Assembly (NCBI GenBank): GCA_028753945.1
Contig: JAPNXP010000015.1
Span: 2,294,001 to 2,358,000, forward strand
Length of the DNA: 64,000 nt
Source: Hexactinellida sp. DTS-2022
Lineage: Eukaryota > Porifera > Hexactinellida
Direction: 5' to 3'
Both the position numbers and the translations under genes were made by a program. Below, one piece after another: positions 39,238-54,189 of the stretch. How positions within the stretch are numbered: position 1 is the first letter of the stretch; each line of letters begins with the position of its first letter. The notes beneath the pieces were generated by a model, which was not told the origin of the DNA, did not search any database, and saw nothing but the letters and a program-made list of their open reading frames with translations.

Positions 39238-39781
39238 TAAAAGGTCCCAAAATTCTCCATATGCAGATATACTTCAATCATACTTCGTCAGAATGCGGGA
39301 AATGCCATTTCGAACCCAAATTTACCCAGATGCATGCCGCGAACCTCCTTAAAATTTACTACTCCAATTTGAACTAGTGGGGCTGTCACGAAAAAATTGG
39401 TCCGGGACCAATTTTGGCCTGCCACAAATGGTCCTAGGTTGCTAAAATAGGTCCGACCTAAACTTTTTGCTAGATCGCATTGTTAGATCGCACTAAAGTT
39501 GCTAAAACAGACCTCCCACTAGTGCGAAATTGTGTAGCACAATCAATAATTAAATTGAAAATGTATCTTTTTCTAATTGTCTACTATGGTTCAGGGGGAA
39601 AAGGAGTCCCTTGTAAGTATGAAGGCATGAATAATAGTGAAAAGAATTGGTTTTGTAATTGTGATATATGGAGTTACGGCGTAAAGAATCAACTTTGTAA
39701 TTGTGTATTATTGAATATTGTGAAAACATTTGCATCTCTATGTATTCTTGTGTTGATGAATGATAAAAGCTATATAATTAC

Positions 39782-40165
39782 TGTGCCGACTATACTACAG
39801 TATAGTGGCCCAGTTCTAATCTTACTGCCTTGGTTAGTTATTACTGTGCCGACTATACTATAGTATAGTGGCCCAGTTCTAATCTTACTGCCTTGGTTAT
39901 TATTATTACTGTGCCGACTATACTATAGTATAGTGGCCCAGTTCTAATCTTAGTGCTTTGGTTTGTTGTTATTATTATTATTACTGTGCCGACTATACTA
40001 TAGTATAGTGGCCCAGTTCTAATCTTAGTGCTTTGGTTAGTTATTACTGTGCCGACTATACTATAGTATAGTGGCCCAGTTCTAATCTTAGTGCTTTGGT
40101 TAGTTATTACTGTGCCGACTATACTATAGTATAGTGGCCCAGTTCTAATCTTAGTGCTTTGGTTA
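39782..40165. repeat. Six tandem copies of a 62-bp unit with a perfect palindrome
   Basis: Unit 'TTACTGTGCCGACTATACTA...' contains CTATACTATAGTATAG, self-complementary, followed by 'TGGCCCAGTTCTAATCTTA'. Spacing varies through a TTATTA microsatellite between units 3 and 4. Single copies cap the inverted satellite copies at 16.15 and 16.57 kb, so this motif appears to be the terminus of the satellite-bearing element. Confidence 0.85.
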
Positions 40166-42632
40166 GTTATTAGTCCGTAGCCTATCTACTGAACAGAGTT
40201 TTACTAACTAAGAGCCGAAATTTTCAGGATATGTGTCTCATGGGTTACAGATGTGCACCTGGGGTCACGTTTTATTATCACATTTTTTTGGACACATTTT
40301 TGCACCTGTTTAATATTAGAAAAAGAACAATAAATAGTGCGCGAATATTCTATTTATATGCATTCGATAGAGAATTAAATTCTACACCTTGTCACAGTGC
40401 ACGAATTTTTAAATTGGGTTTCGTTTGTGCCACAATTGAGTTGGAAAATTCCTTTGTTTACTAACACTTCAGTTCAATTGAAAGTGTTAAATCTAATTCT
40501 ATTGTTTCAACTCGTTATTATAATATTGATTCAACTTGTGAGATCGAGTAGGCTTCTATTTTCCAATTGGAAAAAAAGATTATATATTTCACAACAACGA
40601 CAGATTATGTGATTATATTTACTTCTGCGAGAATATTATTGCACTCTTAATATACTGACGTAATTAATTATAATTAATTCAGTCAGTATATTACTTATAT
40701 AGATGCTTATAATTTGTTTATTAGGGGTTATCGAGAGTGCTTAATTGAAATTTGATAACAAAATAATTAATTAATTATTCATGACAAAATAATTTAATTT
40801 AATAATTGTAAGTTGACATTGAAATTGGTGTTAAATAATAAATAATATTAATTATTATTTATACTAATTAATTAAATATCATAAATCTCAGAAATCAAAT
40901 AAGATAGAAACAAACTTCCAATTTATCAATTGATCCTTATGCCACGTAACACCTATAAAAGTGGGTCTTGACACCTTGAGGTGATGATGACATCGTAAAA
41001 AAAATGTGTTTTCACAATTTTGTGAATTATATAATTCAAATGGGTCGGTTCGTTTTGGGTGATGACCCAGAGCTCACATAAATAATGCTGAGTCATCAGC
41101 TATTATATTCTACTGAAACTTGAATATCTTTGAAATGAAGTGAGCATAAACGAAATTTACAACTCACTAAGGGTCGTTGCCTACAGAAACACCTTTTTGA
41201 AATAATTTAACACCTTCATAGTGATGATGACATGGCGGAAAAAAAAATCCAAAATTGCAGCTGTGCCGACAGCATGTTCCATTGGAGGCACTATCAATAA
41301 GCCACCACCAAAATATAGTGCCACCAAAGGAACATGCGTCGGCACAGCTGCAATTTTGGATTTTTTATTAGTCCGTAGCCTCTCTACTGAACAGAGTTTT
41401 ACTAACTAAGAGCCCAAATTTTCAGGATATGTGTCTCATGGGTTACAGATGTGCACCTGGGGTCACGTTTTATTATCACATTTTTTTGGACACATTTTTG
41501 CACCTGTTTAATATTAGAAAAAGAACAATAAATAGTGCGCGAATATTCTATTTATATGCATTCGATAGAGAATTAAATTCTACACCTTGTCACAGTGCAC
41601 GAATTTTTAAATTGGGTTTCGTTTGTGCCACAATTGAGTTGGAAAATTCCTTTGTTTACTAACACTTCAGTTCAATTGAAAGTGTTAAATCTAATTCTAT
41701 TGTTTCAACTCGTTATTATTATATTGATTCAACTTGTGAGATCGAGTAGGCTTCTATTTTCCAATTGAAAACTAAGATTCTACATTCCATAACAACGACA
41801 GATTATGTGATTATATTTCCTTCTGCAAGAATACTCTTGCACTGTTAATATACTGACGTAATTAATAATAATTAATTAAGTCAGTATATGACTTATATAG
41901 ATGCTCCCAATTTGTTTATTAGGGGTTATCGAGTGTGCGGAATTGAAATTTGATAGCCAAATTAATTAATTAATTATTTATGACAAAATAATTAAACTTA
42001 ATAAATATAAGTTGACATTGAAATTGGTGTTAAATTATAAATATTATTAATAATTATTTATACTAATTAATTAAATATCATAAATCTCAGAGATCATAGA
42101 AGATAGAAACAAACTTTCAAATTATCAATTGGTCCTTATGGCACGTGCCACCTATACAAGTGGGTCTTGACACCTTGAGGTGATGATGACATCGTTAAAA
42201 AAATGTGTTTTTACAATTTTGCTAATTTGATATTTAAAATAGGTTAGTTGATGTTGGGTGATGACCCAACACTCACATAAAATATGCTGAGTCATTAGCT
42301 ATTATATTCTACTCAAACTTGAATATCTCTAAAATTATATGAACTAAATGGAAACTTCCACCACTCTAAGGGTCGATGCCTTCTGTAACACCTTTTTGAA
42401 ATAATTTAACACCTTCATAGTCATGATGACATGGCGAAAATAAAATCCAAAATTGCAGCCTGCGCCGACAGCATGTTCTTTTGGAGGCACTATAAATAAA
42501 CAACCAACAAAATATAGTGCCACCAAAGGAACATGCGTCGGCACAGGCTGCAATTTTGGATTTTTATTTGTCCGTATCCTCTCCACAGAACAGAGTTTTA
42601 TTAACTAAGAGCCCAAATTTTCCATATATTAA

Positions 42633-42730
42633 AAAGTACACTGGACATGTCCATTAGGTACACTGGACATGTCCGTTAGGTACACTGGACATGTCCGTTA
42701 GGTACACTGGACATGTCCGTTATGTACATA
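42633..42730. repeat. Left subterminal 22-bp repeats of the KDZ element
   Basis: Four units GTACACTGGACATGTCC(A/G)TTAG; the palindrome GGACATGTCC starts at 42643, 42665, 42687 and 42709. Probable transposase binding sites. Confidence 0.9.
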
Positions 42731-42947
42731 GTGATAAGATGTTTGTGGTTTACAAACTGTGAGAAGATTTTGTTGTTTATCATATTTAATTAGGACTATA
42801 AATAGATCAAACTGAGCCTATATTGTGTCACTATACTTCATATATTAATAATTTCTTGCTATATTGACTAATAATCAAATTAAAATTTTGAACCTTCTTA
42901 TTCATCGAAAACAAATTTCTAAATTCAGTCAATCAGAATATTTTCGG

Positions 42948-45217
42948 ATGCCTCGTATAACCAAGGGTAACGCAAGGGAACATTTATCAGAAGCAATCCA
43001 AAGATTCCAAAAGGTTACAGGAGAATCCATCGGCGTAGTCTACTCCTGGAAGGGTGCATTATCAGTAATTGGTAACAATTATTTACGGGAACATATTTCT
43101 GAAACCAAAGAAATAGTTTGGAGATCTTTGACTTTCGAGCGATCAACAACACTAGACGACGCATCATACATTTTAGATAAAGAAGATGAAATGATGCATC
43201 TTCTAAAACAAGATCTAAAATCACTCAGTGTCTCGGTATTGAGGAAGATTTTGTCGTGGGCTACTCAAAAGGCACCCAGTGAGTTTTCCTGTTTTTCCAA
43301 CATGCACGATTCAACTGTGTTGTTCAACAATATTACATGAAACTAAATTAGTTGATGATCATATAAAGTTGCAACAAAGTATATCGTGCAATTTATATAA
43401 TTACGAGCCCTTCGGTCTCGCTTTTTTTAATAGCCAAAAAATATTAATTCGTAGTCTGCATACTTGTTTACCTTATAGGCTTATCCAACAAATGGAAGTT
43501 AGTCTCTAGTTCATTTCGAATTCTCCATAATTTGTTTACCTATTTTTGATAAACAACATCAGTAAATATTCATTTTTGAAATTTGTAAATGCGAAATTCG
43601 AAATCAGCATACTTGTTTACCTATAATAACATTTCGAATTTTTTTTCTCATATACGTATAAATGCGGTTTCTATTCCCCATCACTTTAATAGAATCTAAG
43701 CAAACAAACACACAAACAAACAACAATCGAGTTTTAATAAAATTACTTTTCCTAATGGAATATTTCAAATCAATTGGAATGGTAAAATCGTAATTCTAAA
43801 ATACTCGACTAGAATTAACTTAAATGACTTAATTATTGTAGGAAAACCGCGTAATTTTTGGGGGAACAGCGAATTTCAGCCTATATTTTGGCCTAAAGAT
43901 TTACCTTTTCTGAAAAAGTCAAAGAATTTGGACAGATCTACATTACTCATTGTAGTCCAATCAATACGCGAATATCTATACCCAGAACTTTGTGAGAGAG
44001 CTTTAACTGAGAGTTTTAGAGACAGGTCACCTATTCATTTAAAAACAAATAAAGATCCATTGGAAACTGAAATTAACGATGAAATTTTTACAAATCCAAC
44101 TGCTATTCCTTCAGTGATTTCCAGCCAGCAACAATCTCAAAATAATTCTCCCGGACCTAATTCTCTTGATCTTAATTTCAATTCAATTCCTTCTACTCCC
44201 ATTGTCTTATCTGGACTGCAACTCGATCACCCACGCTCCCCAGCTTTACTTATCCCTTTTTCGGATACTTCACCAGCTTCAATTATAAAACTATCTGGTG
44301 CAATTCCGTTAAGCCCTTTAAATGTAAAATTTATAACAATTTTAGATGAAAAAGTGAGGAAAGAATGTCTTAGAGAACTCTCAAATCCCAATACTTTCCT
44401 TAGTGATGTAACTATCAATGCTTTTGGGGTGAGTTTAATTAGGATAATGTTATTTTAAATAGCAATAATGGAATTTCTATTTCGTATTTTAGGTTCTAAT
44501 GAAAAACAACTACCCACACATTCTCGGACTTCAGGATACTATATTATCAGAGGTAATTATCGCTTTTTGAATGTACTTATACTACTAATATAATTAGAAA
44601 TGATACTTCATTTAATTTTATAGAATCGCCAGTTCATCAAAGCACCACTAACAAGTTTTCAAATCCATCATGATGGTGGATTACACTGGGTGTGCTCAAG
44701 GATTGATGATAAAGGAGATGTATCTGTTTACGATTCGATGTATCACCAGCACACTAGCGAAAAACTAGACATCCAGCTTGCACTTCTCTACCGTAGAGAA
44801 TCTGGAGATTTAAAAGTAACTGTGGAACCCCTACAACAACAAAGAGATGTATCGGATTGCGGAGTGTTTGCGATCACTGTTTGCATCGCATTGGCGAATG
44901 GTTTAGAACCTGACCAAATGAGATGGCGCCAAGCAAATATGAGAAAACAGCTCCAGAGTTTTATCAATTCGGAAAAGATATCACCCTTACCTACGCTTTC
45001 AAATCGACTGGCTTCAAATGTGAGTAGTACAAAACACGTTTATACCATCAAGTTATGGTGTCTGTGTCGGTTACCCGAATTCGCTTACAAAAACATGGTC
45101 ATGTGTCCAAGCTGTCATATATGGTTTCACAAACCATGTATTGGACTCAAGGATACTAGTCAAAAGGTACTCTCGTTTATATGCAGAAAATGCCAAACTA
45201 CAAAGATGAAAGAGTAA
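42948..45217 (+). CDS. Ulp1-like cysteine protease with C-terminal PHD finger, encoded by the KDZ transposon
   Basis: Exons 42948-43278, 43842-44428, 44493-44552 and 44624-45217, with GT/AG borders and phases 1, 0, 0 that join into 523 codons without a stop. The C48 (Ulp1/SENP) triad is complete: His in LHWVCS, Asp in VYDSMY, then the Q of LQQQRDVS and Cys in SDCGVFAI. A C4HC3 PHD finger follows at residues about 478-520 (LWCLCRLPEF, VMCPSCHIWFHKPC, FICRKC). The N-terminal 110 residues (GNAREHLSEAIQRFQ) are unrecognised. Such a protease could remove SUMO or another ubiquitin-like tag from the transposase or from chromatin at the target, and the PHD finger could read histone tails; both are inference. 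Intron 1 contains a Helitron-like repeat (43400-43742). Confidence 0.8.
43400..43742 (-). mobile_element. Helitron-like non-autonomous element in intron 1 of the Ulp1/PHD gene
   Basis: Shares 'ACGAGCCCTTCGGTCTCG', 'CAGCATACTTGTTTACC', 'AAATGCGGTTTCTATTCCCC' and 'AACAATCGAGTTTTAATA' with the copies at 27021-27585 and 18018. The TC end is eroded. Confidence 0.45.
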
Positions 45218-45268
45218 ACATGTGATCAAGTTATTTATTTAATGATTTAGTGAACTAAATTCAATTTA

Positions 45269-48200
45269 TTATAATTTTTCTAATTCTTGTTTATTCAAAC
45301 AATACAAAAAATATCGGACATTGTAAAATACGTTTTCAATCCGCATGAAAGATACTTGAGTAGATATTCTTCTGAGCGTAGAGAATAATTGCTCGCAAAC
45401 TTGAGAATTAATTCTCTTGAAATCTTCACTTTTGACAGATTTCAAAGAATAAGATGGGTTGCAGCAATGATTCTTCCAGTGAAAGCGGTCAACCAGGAAT
45501 GTTGTATCTCTGAAAAGTTGAGGGTCTCTAAAATAACAATTGATTCATACAGTAAAACTAGGTGATAACGTACCACCAGGGGAAAGCAAAAAGTACGTAC
45601 TAACTAGTTCTACTAATATTAATAGAATTGGACATCCAACTGAAAAAAATTGCATAACTTATGCCTAAATGTTTTAGAGATAGTTTTCTCATCTGTGAGG
45701 GAACTTATTATTTTGATCTAGGTTCTAACCTGATAATGCATGTGGTATGTAAATTACACGCATTGTCGTATATAATTATACGTGGGGGGGTTTGAAATAA
45801 CGTCAGCAATAGATTGAATACTGTTGTTGTGGACTCTTTAGAACGAAGAATTTCAAATCCGTAGCATACTTTATGCTTACAAACTAGAACTAACAGTCCC
45901 GGTGATAGCCTTTGGTGTTTTGGATATACTTTTGTACATCTTTTAATACTTTTCTCTTCATTCTCGTCTTCATAAATAGGTAATCTATTGGATAAATCAT
46001 TTAACAGGAGTTCATACTTGTATACATTAACATATAGTAAGATACCTGTAACGTCTTGCTATTGCTGGAAAGTATTGAATAAAATTATTAGATGATGCTG
46101 CCTCAACTAATTTCCTTCTATCTCTATGAGAATTGAGTGCCTCAATTTTGAACAGAATTGACTTTAACAAACCAGCTAGAAGAGGATTAAGAGTCAACGC
46201 CGTGTTCAGTTGTTCATTTACTTCAGAAAACGAATTAATGAGAAACTTGAAAGTGTAAATTTTGCCGCAAATCTCGAATAGTATTCCTGGATTAATTGGT
46301 GTTCCATCAGAAAGCTGGACAATAGCTTTCATTTCTTCATCATCGAGAATTGAAATAGGAAATAGGCCAGTAATCGGCTCGGATCGGGACAAGAGTTCGA
46401 TGACAACTTTGGCGTTGGGATAACTATAGTTAACTGCATAAATCTCTTCTCTAACACTATTAGCAAAGATTAAATAATCGCTAAATTCTTTGAACTCTAG
46501 AGAACTTATCATGGCATGAAATGCGCCTTCTAACAATCCATTTTCACAATATTCTCTGAGATTTTTTCTGTTTTTTAGATCAGAAATGAATAATCTTTTT
46601 GACATAGGGACTAATGGGTATCTCTGATTCTCATCATATTCTTGTTGTGAATCAGGAAGTTCTTTGATTGTCCCCATTGTGATTCCATCTAAAACCAATA
46701 TTTCCGGAGCATCTCTACACCTGGGGCAAATAAAGCTGTTTGTGTAGTTAATATCTAACATTCGTAAATATCCATTCCATCCGTGTTGCAAAATGTGGTA
46801 ACTAAAGCTGAGTTCTCTGCCCATCCTGTGGAATTTATTATTCTTTGCTCTAAAATTATAGGAAGATGATATTTAACCTTTAAATTACGTACATAGACTT
46901 TATGAAAATACATACCTCATGTATCCATGAAGTGTATTCCTTGACATAGTCATAAATTCGCTGTATTCGTATAGGACTCCGTAATGGATAAAGTACCGAT
47001 TGTTAACATTGAGTAATAAATATTTATCACCCTCAAAGACAACTTTGCAATTACACTTCCCTTCGCAGGTTGTAGTATACACTAAATATATGACAAATTA
47101 AGTCTGCATATCGGAAAGGTAAACAACATAAATTATACATACCTGTATGTTCTTTTAAGTCAAGTATATCATTTTCTGTGTAAACAATGATGCCCTTCTT
47201 TACTGCAACTAAATTTTTCTCACTATATTTATGGCCTTGCTCGCAAAAAGAAATATCCGATTTGAGATTTATGGGTAGCATGATTCCTTGTGTAAGCTGT
47301 TCATTATAAATATTTGCTAAGTTCTTACTTAGTTTAAATGGAATTTCTCGAGTAGATATTGTTGAATAGTCAAGAGCCTTCGGGGCTATAGGTATTTGAT
47401 CTATGTATTCAGAAAGAATCTTCTGTAAAGTTGACTTTTGTTTGCACATTCCGCTACAGTTATCGCAATACCACTTTCTTTCTTTCATATAAAAGCAGTG
47501 ATATCCATTCCTAATGAGAAAGATTGTATTAGCATCTATTGTAAAATAGGTACTGTCTGCGTGTGATTTGGATTCTGCTAAAGCCAAACTTTGGAACTCT
47601 AAGCACATGTTATATGCTTGATAATGTAAGCATGAATTTAGGTGACAAGATAAACATATCTCCAAACTTGTTTCAATCAAAACCCTCTTCTTCGTTAACA
47701 ATACTTCACCTAACATAGGAAAATAAAGTAATTAAAAAAATCACAGAAATTCAGTGAACTTATTTACTTATATTACCATTAGTGACATCAAAATCTGACA
47801 TAAATATGACTGAGGAATCCTGCAAACGCCAGGCCTTCTGTTTGTCGGATAGAATATGTACATATTGGTCTAGTATTGGAATATTTAATATCAGCTCTCC
47901 TTGTGAACATATCTCAGTACTTTCTTCTTCTTTATGTTCTCCTAAAAATAAAAAAAAGTTAAGTGTATTTCTTACTTGAATTATTTAAATAATTATATAT
48001 ACGTACATGTTTTGCCTGGAAAGAAATAACATTCGAAATGACATTGAACAGTTATAATAAATTCCTCATTTTATTTTTCAAATTAGAATTAGAATTAGTC
48101 CTCAATTATGAATTAATTAACCCCGAAAATCGAGCTTGTTAACTCGACCCAGTTGATTGGGCCAAGTAGACTTGTATTAATCATCTTAGATAATTATTCC

Positions 48201-48531
48201 TTGAAAAATGGCAAGCCAACCAATTTCATGGACTCATCAGGGGGTAACTCTCTTGCTGAGTCCCTGAAATTGGATGCAGAGCAACCAGTTTCACACTGGG
48301 TCGTTGTTCACATAACATTTTGATCTACAATAAAATCAAAACTCGTATATGAAACTTACTAGATGCAATTGCAAATTGCTGTTCAGATATTGTAGTCATA
48401 TTTGTGGATTTAGAAATATCAATTCTTTCGATATAAAGGGTTGCTGGAGTAACGTCAAATTTCTCCTCAACTAGTCTTCGTTTTCTCGGGTGGTTAATAT
48501 CAAACGTTGAGGTAGAGAGTTTTTCAGCCAT
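45269..48531 (-). CDS. KDZ-family transposase (HMGXB3-related), seven exons, apparently intact
   Basis: Exons 48360-48531, 47777-47941, 47143-47709, 46916-47081, 46046-46825, 45730-45984 and 45269-45527. Phases fit throughout, giving 787 residues; most introns are 61-90 bp, the first 418 and the last 202. Visible elements: a basic patch (HPRKRRLVEE); a SWIM-like finger C-x2-C...C-x-H (LSCHLNSCLHYQAY); a second Cys pair WYCDNCSGMC; TCEGKCNCK; then a C-x2-C just before a DG motif (FICPRCRDAPEILVLDGITM). Further on is IIIYDNACNLH with the YDxAC hallmark of KDZ transposases. The C-terminal block is VDRFHWKNHCC ... SQVCEQLFSTLRRI. The Asp residues and the Glu of CEQ are the candidate RNase H-fold catalytic set. 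It would cut and join the element's ends, probably through the 22-bp repeats. The first ATG is 48531; an upstream TTG is ignored. Confidence 0.82.
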
Positions 48532-48671
48532 TTTGATTTGTATCGATGTCAAATAATACTTATGAATAGAAATACAGAAATTTTCATTTATTTATATACT
48601 TTACGCGATTCAAATTAAAACATGTGACTATTGATGCTTTGCCTTGAGATTGGGGGGTCGACTGTCTACCT

Positions 48672-48806
48672 AACGGACATGTCCAGTGTACCTATTGGAC
48701 ATGTCCAGTGTACCTAACGGACATGTCCAGTGTACCTAATGGACATGTCCAGTGTACCTAATGGACATGTCCAGTGTACCTAATGGACATGTCCAGTGTA
48801 CTTTTT
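48672..48806. repeat. Right subterminal 22-bp repeats of the KDZ element
   Basis: Six units in the opposite orientation to the left set; GGACATGTCC starts at 48675, 48697, 48719, 48741, 48763 and 48785. Units differ only in the TAACGG/TAATGG/TATTGG spacer. Confidence 0.9.
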
Positions 48807-51800
48807 AATACCTCAAATTTTCAGGATATGTGTCTCATGGGTTACAGATGTGCACCTGGGGTCACGATTTTTTATTACATTTTTTTGGACACATTTTTGC
48901 ACCTGTTTATTATTGAAACAGGAACAATAAATAGTACCCGAAAATTAAATTTATATGCATTCGATAGAGAATTAAATTCTACACCTTTTCACAGTGCACG
49001 AATTTTCAAATTGTACTTAGTTTGTACCACAATTGAGTTGCAAGTTTCCTTTGTTTACTAACACTTCAGTTCAATTGAAAGTGTTAAATCTAATACTATT
49101 GTTTCAACGCGTTATTATTATATTGATTCAACTTGTGAGATCGAGTAGGCTTCTATTTTCCAATTGAAAACTAAGATTATATATTTCACAACAACGACAG
49201 ATTATGTGATTATATTTATTCTGCGAGAATATTATTGCACTGTTAATATACTGACGTAATTAATTATAATTAATTCAGTCAGTATATTACTTATAAAGAT
49301 GCTTATAATTTGTTTATTAGGGGTTATCGAGAGTGCGGAATTGAAATTTGATAACCAAATTAATTAATTAATTATTCATGACAGAATAATTTAACTTAAT
49401 AATTGTAAGTTGACATTGAAATTGGTGTTAAATTATATATAATATTAATTATTATTTATACTAATTAATTAAATATCATAAATCTCAGAAAACAAATAAG
49501 ATAGAAACTTACTTCCAATTTATCAATTGATCCTTATGCCACGTAACACCTCTACAAATGGGTCTTGACACCTTGAGGTGATGATGACATCATCAAATAA
49601 ATGTGTTTTTACAATTTTGGTAGTTCGATATTTAAAATGGGTTAGTTGATTTTGGGTGATGACCCAACACTCACATAAAAAATGCTGAGTCATCAGCTAT
49701 TATATTCTACTGAAACTTGAATATCTTAGAAATGTAGTGAGCAAAAACGAAACTTCCACCACTCTAAGGGTCGTTGCCTACTGAAACACCTTTCTGTAAT
49801 AATTTAACACCTTCATAGTGATGATGACATGGCGGAAAAAAATCCAAAATTGCAGCCTGTGTCGACAGCACGTTCCTTTGGAGGCACTATCAATAAACCA
49901 CACCAAAATATAGTGCCACCAAGGAACATGCGTCGGCACAGGCTGCAATTTTGGATTTTTTTATTTATCCGTAGCTCATCCACAGAATAGAGTTTTATTA
50001 ACTAAGAACCCAAAATTTCAGGACAGGTGTCTCATGGGTTACAGATATGCACCTGGGGTCACGATTTTTTACTACATTTTTTTGGACACATTTTTGCACC
50101 TGTTTAATATTAGAAAAAGAACAATAAATAGTGCACAAATATTTAAATTATATGCATTCAATGGAGAATTAAATTCTACACCTTTTCACAGTGCACGAAT
50201 TTTTAAATTGAGTTTCGTTTGTGCCACAATTGAGTTGCAAGTTTCCTTTGTTTAATAACACTTCTGTTCAATTGAAGTGTTAAATCGAATTCTATTGTTT
50301 CAACTTGTAATAATTATATTGATTCAACTTGTGAGATCGAGTAGGCTTCTATTTTCTAATTGAAACCTAAGATTTTACATTCCACAACAACGACAGATTA
50401 AGTGATTATATTTATTTCTGCGAGAATATTCTTGCACTGTTAATAGACTGACGTAATTAATTATAATTAATTCAGTCAGTATATGACTTATATAGATGCT
50501 TCCAATTTGTGTATTAGGGGTTATCGAGTGTGCGGAATTGAAATTTGATTACCAAATTAATTAATTAATTATTTATGACAAAATAATTTAACTTAATAAC
50601 TGTAAGTTGACATTGAAATTGGTGTTATATTATAAATAATATTAATAATTATTTATACTAATTAATTAAATATCATAAATCTCAGAATTCAAATAAGATA
50701 GAAACAAACTTCCAATTTATCAATTGATCCTTATGCCACGTAACACCTCTACAAATGGGTCTTGACACCTTGAGGTGATGATGACATCGTCAAAAAAATG
50801 TGTTTTTACAATTTTGTTAATTCGATATTTAAAATGGGTTAGTTGATATTGGATGATGACCCAACACTCACATAAAAAATGCTGAGTCATCAGCTATTAT
50901 ATTCTACTCAAACTTGAATATCTCTAAAATTAAGTGAACTAAATGGAAACTTCCACCACTCGAAGGGTCGTTGCCTACTGAAACACCTTTCTGTAATAGT
51001 TTAACACCTTCATAGTGATGATGACTAGGCGAAAAAAAATCCAAAATTGCAGCTTGTGCCGACAGCATGTTCCTTTGGAGGAACTATCAATAAACCACCA
51101 CCAAAATATAGTGCAACCTAAGGAACATGCGTCGGCACAGGCTGCAATTTTGGATTTTTATTATTATTAGTCCGTAGATCGTCCACAGAACAGAGTTTTG
51201 TAAACTAAGAGCACAAATTTTACTATATGTGTCTCATGGGTTACAGATGTGCACCTGGGGTCACGATTTTTGATTCAAAATTTTTGGACACATTTTTACA
51301 CCTGTTTAATGTTAGAAAAAGAACAATAAATAGTGCGCGAATAACTAATTTATATGCATTCGATAGAGAATTTAATTCTACACCTTTTCACAGTGCACGA
51401 ATTTTTAAATTGGGTTTCGTTTGTGCCACAATTGAGTTGCAAATTCCCTTTGTTTACTAACACTTCAGTTCAAATGAAAGTGTTAAATCTAATTCTATTG
51501 TTTCAACTTGTAATAATTATATTGATTTAACTTGTTAAATCTTACTCTATTGTTTCAACTTGAGATAAATATATTGATTCAACTTATAAATTCCAGCTGG
51601 CTTCTATTTAATTGTAGTATTACTATACAATGGATTAAATAAGATATAATGATATAAGGAATTTGTTGACTAAACTCAAATCACCGTGGATAACAATGCT
51701 AAAATAAATAACTAATAAATTAATTTATTATCAATAAGTAATGAATGAATGGCATTAAACTAAAGATGGTTTATGATAGAACCGTTAAGATTTTACATAC

Positions 51801-52573
51801 CACAACAACGACAGATTATGTGATTATATTTACTTCTGCGTTAATATTATTGCACTGTTAATATACTGACGTAATTAATTATCATTAATTCAGTCAGTAT
51901 ATGACTTATATAGATGCTTCCAATTTGTTTATTAGGGGTTATCGAGGGTGCGGAATTGAAATTTGATGGACAAATTAATTTATTTATTATTTATGACAAA
52001 ATAATTAAACTTAATAAATATAAGTTGACATTGAAATTGGTGTTAAATTATAAATAATATTAATAATTATATATACTAATTAATTAAATATCATAAATCT
52101 CAGAGATCATAGAAGATAGAAACAAACTTTCAATTTATCAATTGGTCCTTATGGCACGTGCCACCTATACAAGTGGGTCTTGACACCTTGAGGTGATGAT
52201 GACATCGTTAAAAAAATGTGTTTTTACAATTTTGTTAATTCGATATTAAAAGTGGGTTAGTTCATGTTGGGTGATGACCCAACACTCACATAAAAAATGC
52301 TGAGTCATCAGTTGTTATATTCTACTCAAACTTGAATATCGCTAAAAGGAAGTGAACTAAAACGAAACTTCCACCACTCTAAGGGTCGATGCCTTCTGTA
52401 ACACCTTTTTGAAATAATTTAACACCTTTATAGTGATGATGACTTGGCGAAAAAAAAATCCAAAATTGCATCCTGTGCCGACAGCATGTTCCATTGGAGG
52501 CACTATCAATAAACCACCAACAAAATATAGTGCCACCCAAGGAACATGCGTCGGCACAGGATGCAATTTTGGA

Positions 52574-52576
<3 letters not shown>

Positions 52577-52617
<41 letters not shown>
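52577..52617. repeat. (TTA)n microsatellite
   Basis: Thirteen or so TTA/ATT triplets directly after the hairpin of the fifth satellite unit; shorter versions occur at the same place in other units. Confidence 0.9.
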
Positions 52618-54189
52618 TATCCGTAGCCACTCCACAGAACAGAGTTTTATCAACTAAGAGCCCAAATTTTTAGGATGGGTGTCTCATGGTATACATATGT
52701 ACACCTGGGGTTACGATTTTTGATTAACAAATTTTGGACACATGTTTAACACCTTTCAAAATTTGTCTGGACCATAACTAAAAAGATGTTTTACTAAACT
52801 CCCAAATTTTATTTCATATTTGGCTTCACCATAAAATTCTGCGTCTGATGGGAGAAGAAATTTTTCAATAAAGGGGTCAATTTCTGCCATAAATGGGGGT
52901 TGAAATTTCTTTGTTTACTCACACTTCAATTTCAGTAAAGTGTTAAATCTAATTCTATTGTTTCAACTTGTAATAATTATATTGATTCAACTTGTGAGAT
53001 CGAGTAGGCTTCTATTTTCCAATTGAAAACTAAGATTCTACATTCCATAACAACGACAGATTATTTGATTATATTTATTTCTGCTTAGAATATTCTTGCA
53101 CAATGGATACATAACATATTTAATTCTAATTAATTCGCTCTGTGTTTAACGTATAGAGACGGTTCCAAATAGATTATTGGGGTTATCGAGTGCGCTGAAT
53201 TCAAATATGATAATGGAATTCAATTTAAATTAATAATTATTGCAAATAATTGAACTTAATTTATTTTGATGTACATACTATTGGTGTTAAATTATTAATA
53301 GATTAATTAAATATTTATACTAATTATCTAAATTTCATTAATCTCAGAAATGATATAAGATAGAAACAAACTTTAAATTTATCAATTGGTCCTTATGGCA
53401 CGTACCACCTATACAAGTGGGTCTTGACACCTTGAGGTGATTATGACATCGTCAAAAAAATGTATTTTTACAATTTTGTGAATTAAATAATTCGCATGGG
53501 TTGGTTGGAGTTGGGTAAACACCCAACACGCACATAAAAAATGCTGGGTCATCACAGATTATATTCTACTGAAACTTGAATATCTCTTAAATATAGTGAG
53601 CTAAATTGAGACTTCCAACTCACTAAGGGTCGTTGCCTTTTGAAACACCTTTCTGAAATAATTTAACACCTTCATAGTGATGATGACTTGGCGAAAAAAA
53701 TCCAAAATTGCAGCCTGTGCCGACAGCATGTTCCTTTGGAGGCACTATCAATAAACTACCATCCAAATATAGTGCCACCAAAGGAACATGCGTCGGCACA
53801 GGCTGCAATTTTGGATTTTTTATTGTCTTGGAATGGCTGTCCGGCGGGGACCACCTTTGGCCAATGGGGACCGCCTTTGGCGACCAAAACTGGTCCGGCC
53901 GGACCATTTTTGGCGACCAAAACTAGTCCGACCGGACCATTTATGGCCAGCCAAAATTGGTCCCGGACCATTTTTGGCAGTCAAAAGTGGTCCGACCGGA
54001 CCAGTTTTGACCCGGACCAATTTTGGCGTGACAGGGCCTGGGGCCCCGATACATACTTTGAACCGGGGGCCCCGAAAAATTAGCTACGCCACTGCTAAAA
54101 CCCCGAGTTCCCGAACGGGAACTTTTCAAAATCTATTCTGGCAAACTTTTAAACACTATATTCTACGATCACTTTACGTGCACCTAACA

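Follow-up and report, generated by a model that had tools for sequence, protein, structure and literature searches.

A two-gene KDZ transposon from a glass sponge with a remote NRF1-type region in its protease-PHD partner and palindromic arrays at its ends

A stretch of 64,000 nucleotides from Hexactinellida sp. DTS-2022 (GCA_028753945.1, contig JAPNXP010000015.1, positions 2,294,001-2,358,000 of the forward strand; hereafter the window) contains a KDZ (Kyakuja-Dileera-Zisupton) transposon of 6,192 bp (42623..48814) in which the transposase gene is accompanied by a second, convergent gene. The product of this second gene, hereafter the partner, joins an N-terminus that is recognisable by profile comparison as a remote NRF1-type dimerisation and DNA-binding region to a Ulp1-like protease and a PHD finger, and both ends of the element carry tandem arrays built on a 10-bp palindrome. 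An initial annotation of the window had described the partner correctly as a Ulp1-like protease with a PHD finger but had overlooked the NRF1-type region and the palindromic arrays, which are the surprising part of the element. These features suggest that the partner binds the transposon's own ends, and we consider it likely that the element is a two-gene KDZ transposon whose partner acts as a terminus-binding adaptor, bringing the Ulp1-type protease and the PHD finger to those ends.

The partner protein and the terminal palindromes

The partner gene (42948..45217, plus strand; exons 42948-43278, 43842-44428, 44493-44552 and 44624-45217) encodes 523 amino acids. Its NRF1-type region (amino acids 1-75 and 91-160; 42948..43990, plus strand) is split by intron 1. 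A profile search with the N-terminus returned the solved NRF1 structures 8k3d (E-value 3.5e-7) and 8k4l (8.3e-7), the next match being at 0.82, and hhalign gave 5.1e-9 for the partner region against NRF1. The NRF1 homodimer binds GCGCATGCGC, with R206 contacting the central TpG and N242 and R244 the outer bases, according to the account from which the human residue numbering is taken (PMC10810270). A search of 22 sister-family loci gave 19 alignments extending to the counterpart of R206, which is R99 in the window protein, and all 19 have arginine there. When eight partner homologues were scanned with the Pfam profile Nrf1_DNA-bind (cut-off 23.5 bits), P0019 (24.4) and P0020 (25.4) passed and six fell below, and nine frames of the sponge genome passed at 24.9-25.7 bits besides the true NRF1 gene. 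The latter (L060, 1009-2538) encodes both the dimerisation region and the DNA-binding region in a single intronless open frame, and matches NRF1 with 176.5 bits (Pfam profile) and an E-value of 1.8e-36 to 8k4l.

The Ulp1/C48 protease domain (amino acids 274-445, exons 2-4; 44330..44980, plus strand) scored 23.8 bits in a Pfam scan (cut-off 20.7) and contains H347, D363, a glutamine run Q397-Q399 and C405, in agreement with the H-D-Q-C site initially described; we take Q399 to be the catalytic glutamine from its spacing to C405, after the pattern of SENP1. The PHD finger (amino acids 470-518; 45053..45199, plus strand) scored 26.2 bits (cut-off 24.0), and its nearest solved relatives by sequence are PHF2, BPTF and PHF8.

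Repeat and motif scans delimit a left terminal array of four 22-bp units (42636..42723, plus strand), each with the 10-bp palindrome GGACATGTCC, and a right array of six such units (48664..48801, minus strand). The left array lies 0.1-0.3 kb upstream of the partner gene and the right one at the same distance upstream of the transposase gene; given this position just upstream of both genes, the partner may control their transcription. The palindrome occurs 10 times in the window against an expectation of 0.01. In the window's own genome (112.4 Mb, 18 contigs), to which all genome-wide counts refer, pairs of GGACATGTCC spaced by 9-15 bp occur 30 times in 112 Mb, all of them at the ends of the five copies of this family, and 0 times in a reversed control. 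The right array had no match in a plasmid collection.

The genome holds at least 86 exon-level matches to the partner in a protein search, from which 13 sister loci outside the window family were fetched (L039-L048, L051-L053). Among the sister families the array palindromes vary, while the outermost terminal sequence is near constant, one end having CATATATT(T)AA and the opposite end TTTAATACCTC or a close variant. A family found at two places, L046/L056 and L048/L057, has arrays of GCGCATGCGC; the palindrome is TGCGCATGCGCA in L051, GAGCATGCTC in L045, TTACATGTTG in L054, TTCGACAGTCGAA in L058 and L059, and GGCGCTAGCGCC in L061. Spaced GCATGC pairs were counted 971 times in the whole genome, 44 times the 22 of the reversed control. 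Positions of arrays were compared with those of partner loci at the start of contig C1, where the two lists overlap below 6.676 Mb: CATG-centred arrays flank 6 of the 6 listed partner loci, at both ends for 1385129, 1929268, 1955162, 2313177 and 5032863 and at its one listed end for 4762700. Paired CATG-centred arrays also occur without a listed partner gene at C1:752371-755912 and C1:3940844-3942091, perhaps as non-autonomous derivatives. A 25-bp array with ATTTCATGAAAT (L040, 331-416) is internal instead of terminal, some 700 bp from the left end of the C5:4229418 element.

The residues of the contact loop appear to go with the array motif, a suggestive relation drawn from the aligned sequences. 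The pattern N242-x-R/K244 is present in L042-L044, L046-L048, the C2:991185 element (L005) and the Oopsacas proteins P0017 and P0018. The loop of the window family reads K-x-S, as do those of L039 and L041. Where the ends of such N-x-K families were seen, exact GCGCATGCGC is found in 3 of 3 (L042, by position; L046/L056; and the C2:991185 element, with one exact site and one variant alongside), against 1 of 6 other families (L051, the rest being the window family, L045, L054, L058 and L061), which gives a one-sided Fisher value of about 0.05 for rows that are not independent. The N-x-K rows form a single clade with 98/93 support in a tree of the protease exon that resolves the deeper branching poorly, with 9 of 15 inner branches left open. 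Rows from Oopsacas are interspersed in this tree with rows from the window genome, from which we infer that the families predate the host split or moved between hosts.

Insertion, transposase and related copies

The ends of the element, CATATATTAAAAAG ... CTTTTTAATACCTC, belong to terminal inverted repeats of 102 nt with 97% identity, and flank inspection finds the 8-bp target site duplication AAATTTTC on both sides (42615..42622 and 48815..48822). The matching repeats and perfect duplication of the initial annotation are confirmed; its borders, 42622..48813, pointed to the right locus but were one base off at both ends, as judged from the inverted ends, the flanks and the uninterrupted sites. 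The element lies in a tandem array of units of about 1.2 kb (window 40158-53820), some 91% alike among the nearer ones and 80-84% past 51786. Five uninterrupted paralogous sites within this array match the joined flanks minus the element, at 88-93% identity over 113-120 aligned columns, and they contain AAATTTTC exactly (two sites), with one base off (two) or with a one-base gap (one); the element therefore inserted here. A separate 63-bp tandem repeat occupies window 39777-40172.

The transposase gene (45269..48531, minus strand) encodes 795 amino acids in exons 48531-48360, 47941-47777, 47709-47143, 47081-46916, 46849-46046, 45984-45730 and 45527-45269. Both exon chains, seven for the transposase and four for the partner, have GT-AG borders and join in phase without a stop, as first proposed, and the genes converge with a gap of 51 bp between the partner stop, ending at 45217, and the transposase gene end at 45269. 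The chains are supported by their match to annotated proteins of another glass sponge, Oopsacas minuta: P0016 is 60% identical over 99% of the partner's length, and P0001 is 59% identical across its share of the searched transposase residues 350-795 and, by eye, parallels the transposase from the N-terminus almost as far as the last residues of exon 5. That these nearest proteins come from a glass sponge accords with the early-branching animal host presumed at the outset.

The transposase matches the KDZ profile PF18758 with 33.4 bits (cut-off 26.6), as the initial annotation had anticipated. In the catalytic region (45344..46689, minus strand) D411, D698 and E755 are invariant in eight aligned transposases (the window protein and seven database proteins), as are C398, C401, H726, H730 and C732; by analogy, D411-D698-E755 would be the DDE-type catalytic residues. 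The element was filed as KDZ because of the profile score and these invariant residues. Cys/His clusters lie N-terminal of the catalytic core, where a CxC4-like cysteine cluster (46804..47269, minus strand) scored 23.3 bits, below the Pfam cut-off of 26.9. An assignment to Ginger1 was rejected, a Pfam scan of both proteins (E up to 1) having listed no integrase family.

A whole-genome search with flank inspection found five copies with both ends: the window copy, L009 on contig C6, L010, an interrupted copy on contig C2 (L011/L012) and the internally deleted L013. L009 differs from the window copy by 8 mismatches in 6,166 aligned bases (99.87% identity) and at seven positions over the 5,920 bases of the interior, and the window element has moved recently, as first suspected. 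Both reading frames are open in both copies, and the element was fairly called intact in this respect; each twin nevertheless departs from its relatives at a conserved position, the window partner having D401 where L009 and most relatives viewed have glycine, and the L009 transposase having tyrosine at residue 139 where the window has C139, a cysteine of the Cys/His cluster. L010 has stop codons in both genes, and the C2 copy has one transposase stop and about half of the partner gene unaligned. Against the window copy, dN/dS for the partner is 0.61 in L010 and 0.51 in the C2 copy, and for the transposase 0.56 in L010 and 0.21 in the C2 copy; these values come from few changes and carry no error bars.

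The duplications are exact in three of the five family copies (AAATTTTC, CAATTAGT and CAAAATAC). Among nine copies checked, sister families included, all 8 bp agree in the window copy, L009, L011/L012, L057 and L059, 7 of 8 in L013 and L056 and 6 of 8 in L010, L058 being ambiguous; in L056 and L057 the best border for the duplication shifts by one base.

About 90 of the 127 first whole-element matches in the genome (query 779-1131) were set aside as a repeat in partner intron 1 rather than copies of the element. This dispersed, often tandem repeat (window 43446-43743) is found in nearly 30 other places on many contigs at 72-91% identity. Three further loci (L014, L015 and L016) are repeats longer than 6.4 kb, each containing pieces with about 94% similarity to this transposase gene (all from window 47097-48633); L015 and L016 are each more than 99% identical to L014, and the piece is a captured fragment inside another repeat.

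The two genes co-occur well beyond the window family. All seven genome matches listed for the KDZ profile, four of them near-identical copies, have a convergent partner, and 11 of the 13 loci fetched with the partner have a convergent transposase, several being copies of one family; the two without it, L052 and L053, belong to one family. Both sets include near-identical copies, and L044 is the KDZ locus L023, counted in both. Both genes thus travel together across diverged families, and the convergent layout is usual within what is, for this genome, an old and large lineage: the element is recently mobile, as the initial annotation held, but the layout is not the peculiarity it was taken for.

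Outside the genome, a search of a 5.8-billion-protein set with the partner, which requires short shared words and which distant relatives may escape, returned 13 distinct proteins, and among these the NRF1-Ulp1-PHD combination is confined to Oopsacas proteins. Of the others, P0025 and P0027 are Ulp1-PHD pieces without the N-terminus. P0023 combines SWIM with Ulp1, and P0028 has Ulp1 and PHD slightly under the Pfam cut-offs, no NRF1 match and an N-terminal Cys/His pattern resembling, by eye, a SWIM finger; both are perhaps partners with another DNA-binding part.

A candidate adaptor and its alternatives

In the mechanism that we propose, the element would move by KDZ (Zisupton-like) cut-and-paste transposition, the transposase cutting and joining via D411-D698-E755 and making the 8-bp duplications. 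The NRF1-type module would dimerise and bind the palindromes that recur at 22-bp intervals in the two terminal arrays. The Ulp1-class protease, brought there by the module, could strip SUMO or a related tag from end-bound proteins, for example the transposase or factors of host silencing or repair, and the PHD finger, by probably reading methylated histone H3, could tether the adaptor. Such an adaptor may help synapsis, counter silencing or regulate both genes. We infer each of these functional steps, from DNA binding and dimerisation to the protease substrate and histone reading, from homology and motif placement.

Several observations weigh against this proposal. The window partner reaches 12.6 bits with Nrf1_DNA-bind, under the gathering cut-off, and was for that reason filed as a protein with a remote NRF1-type region instead of an NRF1 protein. 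The window family lacks the N242/R244 pattern, in a loop whose register is uncertain outside the N-x-K clade because loop lengths differ; since, in addition, the N-x-K rows are one clade, the link between loop and motif is suggestive at most. Spaced ACATGT pairs are not enriched genome-wide (727 against 1,426 in the control), and the palindromicity of single units is marginal for several of them.

The transposase itself might bind the arrays, for example through its zinc-binding N-terminal part, with the NRF1-like region serving a different purpose, for instance the targeting of host promoters. Binding to its own ends is what a transposase normally does, the Cys/His clusters would be suitably placed, and paired arrays also surround short stretches without a listed partner gene. 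We nevertheless think this rather unlikely. All three N-x-K families for which both loop and ends were seen have GCGCATGCGC, and one family keeps its arrays and partner where a transposase escapes detection: L054 (1-4334) and L055 (1-4324), longer stretches from the same places as L052 and L053, contain partner and arrays with no transposase detected, and this family, at least 4.3 kb long, may have been moved in trans. Furthermore, the array motif of some families is the published NRF1 site, and NRF1 is described as binding such palindromes as a dimer (PMC10810270).

The arrays could instead be promoter sites for host transcription factors, namely host NRF1 for the GCGCATGCGC families and perhaps a p53-type factor for the window family. 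The genome does have a genuine NRF1 gene, the arrays lie directly upstream of both genes, and GGACATGTCC fits the p53 half-site RRRCWWGYYY. We regard this explanation as improbable. In a published assay, NRF1 binding was weakened by double mutants at positions at which GGACATGTCC and GCGCATGCGC differ (PMC10810270), and motifs that are family-specific beside near-constant outermost termini are more readily explained by a binder that the element encodes than by a single host factor. It is very improbable that the 22-bp arrays are spacer satellites devoid of protein specificity that resemble NRF1 sites by chance, for although DNA transposons commonly have tandem repeats near their ends and the marginal single units and unenriched ACATGT pairs fit such a view, the excess of spaced GCATGC pairs, the restriction of close GGACATGTCC pairs to termini and the exact NRF1 palindromes in families whose partner has the N-x-R/K loop of NRF1 speak against it.

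Relation to known systems

The adaptor proposal can be set beside systems that share parts of this architecture. Zisupton and other KDZ elements have in common with the sponge element a KDZ transposase domain, inverted ends and 8-bp target duplications, the size given for Zisupton (PMC12730594), as well as a multi-exon transposase gene (PMC9297572). Fungal KDZ transposons that carry TET/JBP genes resemble it in having a second gene, with a supposed role against silencing by the host (PMC12730594), but their cargo is a dioxygenase, whereas that of the sponge element is a protease with DNA-binding and PHD domains. Ulp1 plus PHD, which the initial annotation had presented as a novelty in a transposon, is already described for Ginger1-9_HM (PMC2836005), and CACTA and MULE families of plants are reported to contain Ulp1-like regions, whose orientation is opposite in some MULEs (PMC2528002). 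What is known already thus comprises Ulp1 with PHD in Ginger1, Ulp1 in MULE and CACTA elements, and second genes in fungal KDZ elements. Ginger1, Mutator-like and CACTA-ULP elements differ in their class of transposase, and the consulted portions of the sources describe no NRF1-type module for them; in Ginger1, moreover, the Ulp1 and PHD domains sit within the transposase, whereas the sponge element has a separate gene. For other elements, Ulp1 has been suggested to take part in transposition (PMC2836005).

With the transcription factors NRF1, P3A2 and EWG, the partner shares remote homology over the dimerisation and DNA-binding regions, the conserved counterpart of R206 and, in some sister families, GCGCATGCGC; it differs in being transposon-encoded and fused to a protease and a PHD finger, and the window family in having GGACATGTCC and other residues at the N242/R244 positions. 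HMGXB3 is an animal host gene with a KDZ-related region, thought to derive from a KDZ transposase. Among the papers listed by searches of an open-licence library, none reports a KDZ element with an NRF1-type domain or with NRF1-site ends, and a KDZ transposon whose partner has a remote NRF1-type region and probably binds the ends is probably new here.

If the partner binds the ends, an adaptor dedicated to KDZ transposition would deliver both a histone reader and a deSUMOylating enzyme to the element, and the role proposed for Ulp1 proteases in transposition would become directly testable. A mobile element would also be linked to a transcription factor module that animals conserve and to the response element of that module, and related proteins with differing palindromes would be at hand for decoding NRF1-type DNA recognition. 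We are evenly divided on the broader idea that this animal transposon lineage shares the NRF1 DNA-binding module and palindromic response element with its hosts, module and terminal palindrome having since diversified in step. If true, the lineage would amount to a naturally evolved series of NRF1-type specificities, and wherever a member of a GCGCATGCGC family inserted, the host genome would gain several potential NRF1 sites close together. The module could have originated in either direction, by transposon capture from host NRF1 or by domestication of NRF1 from such a partner.

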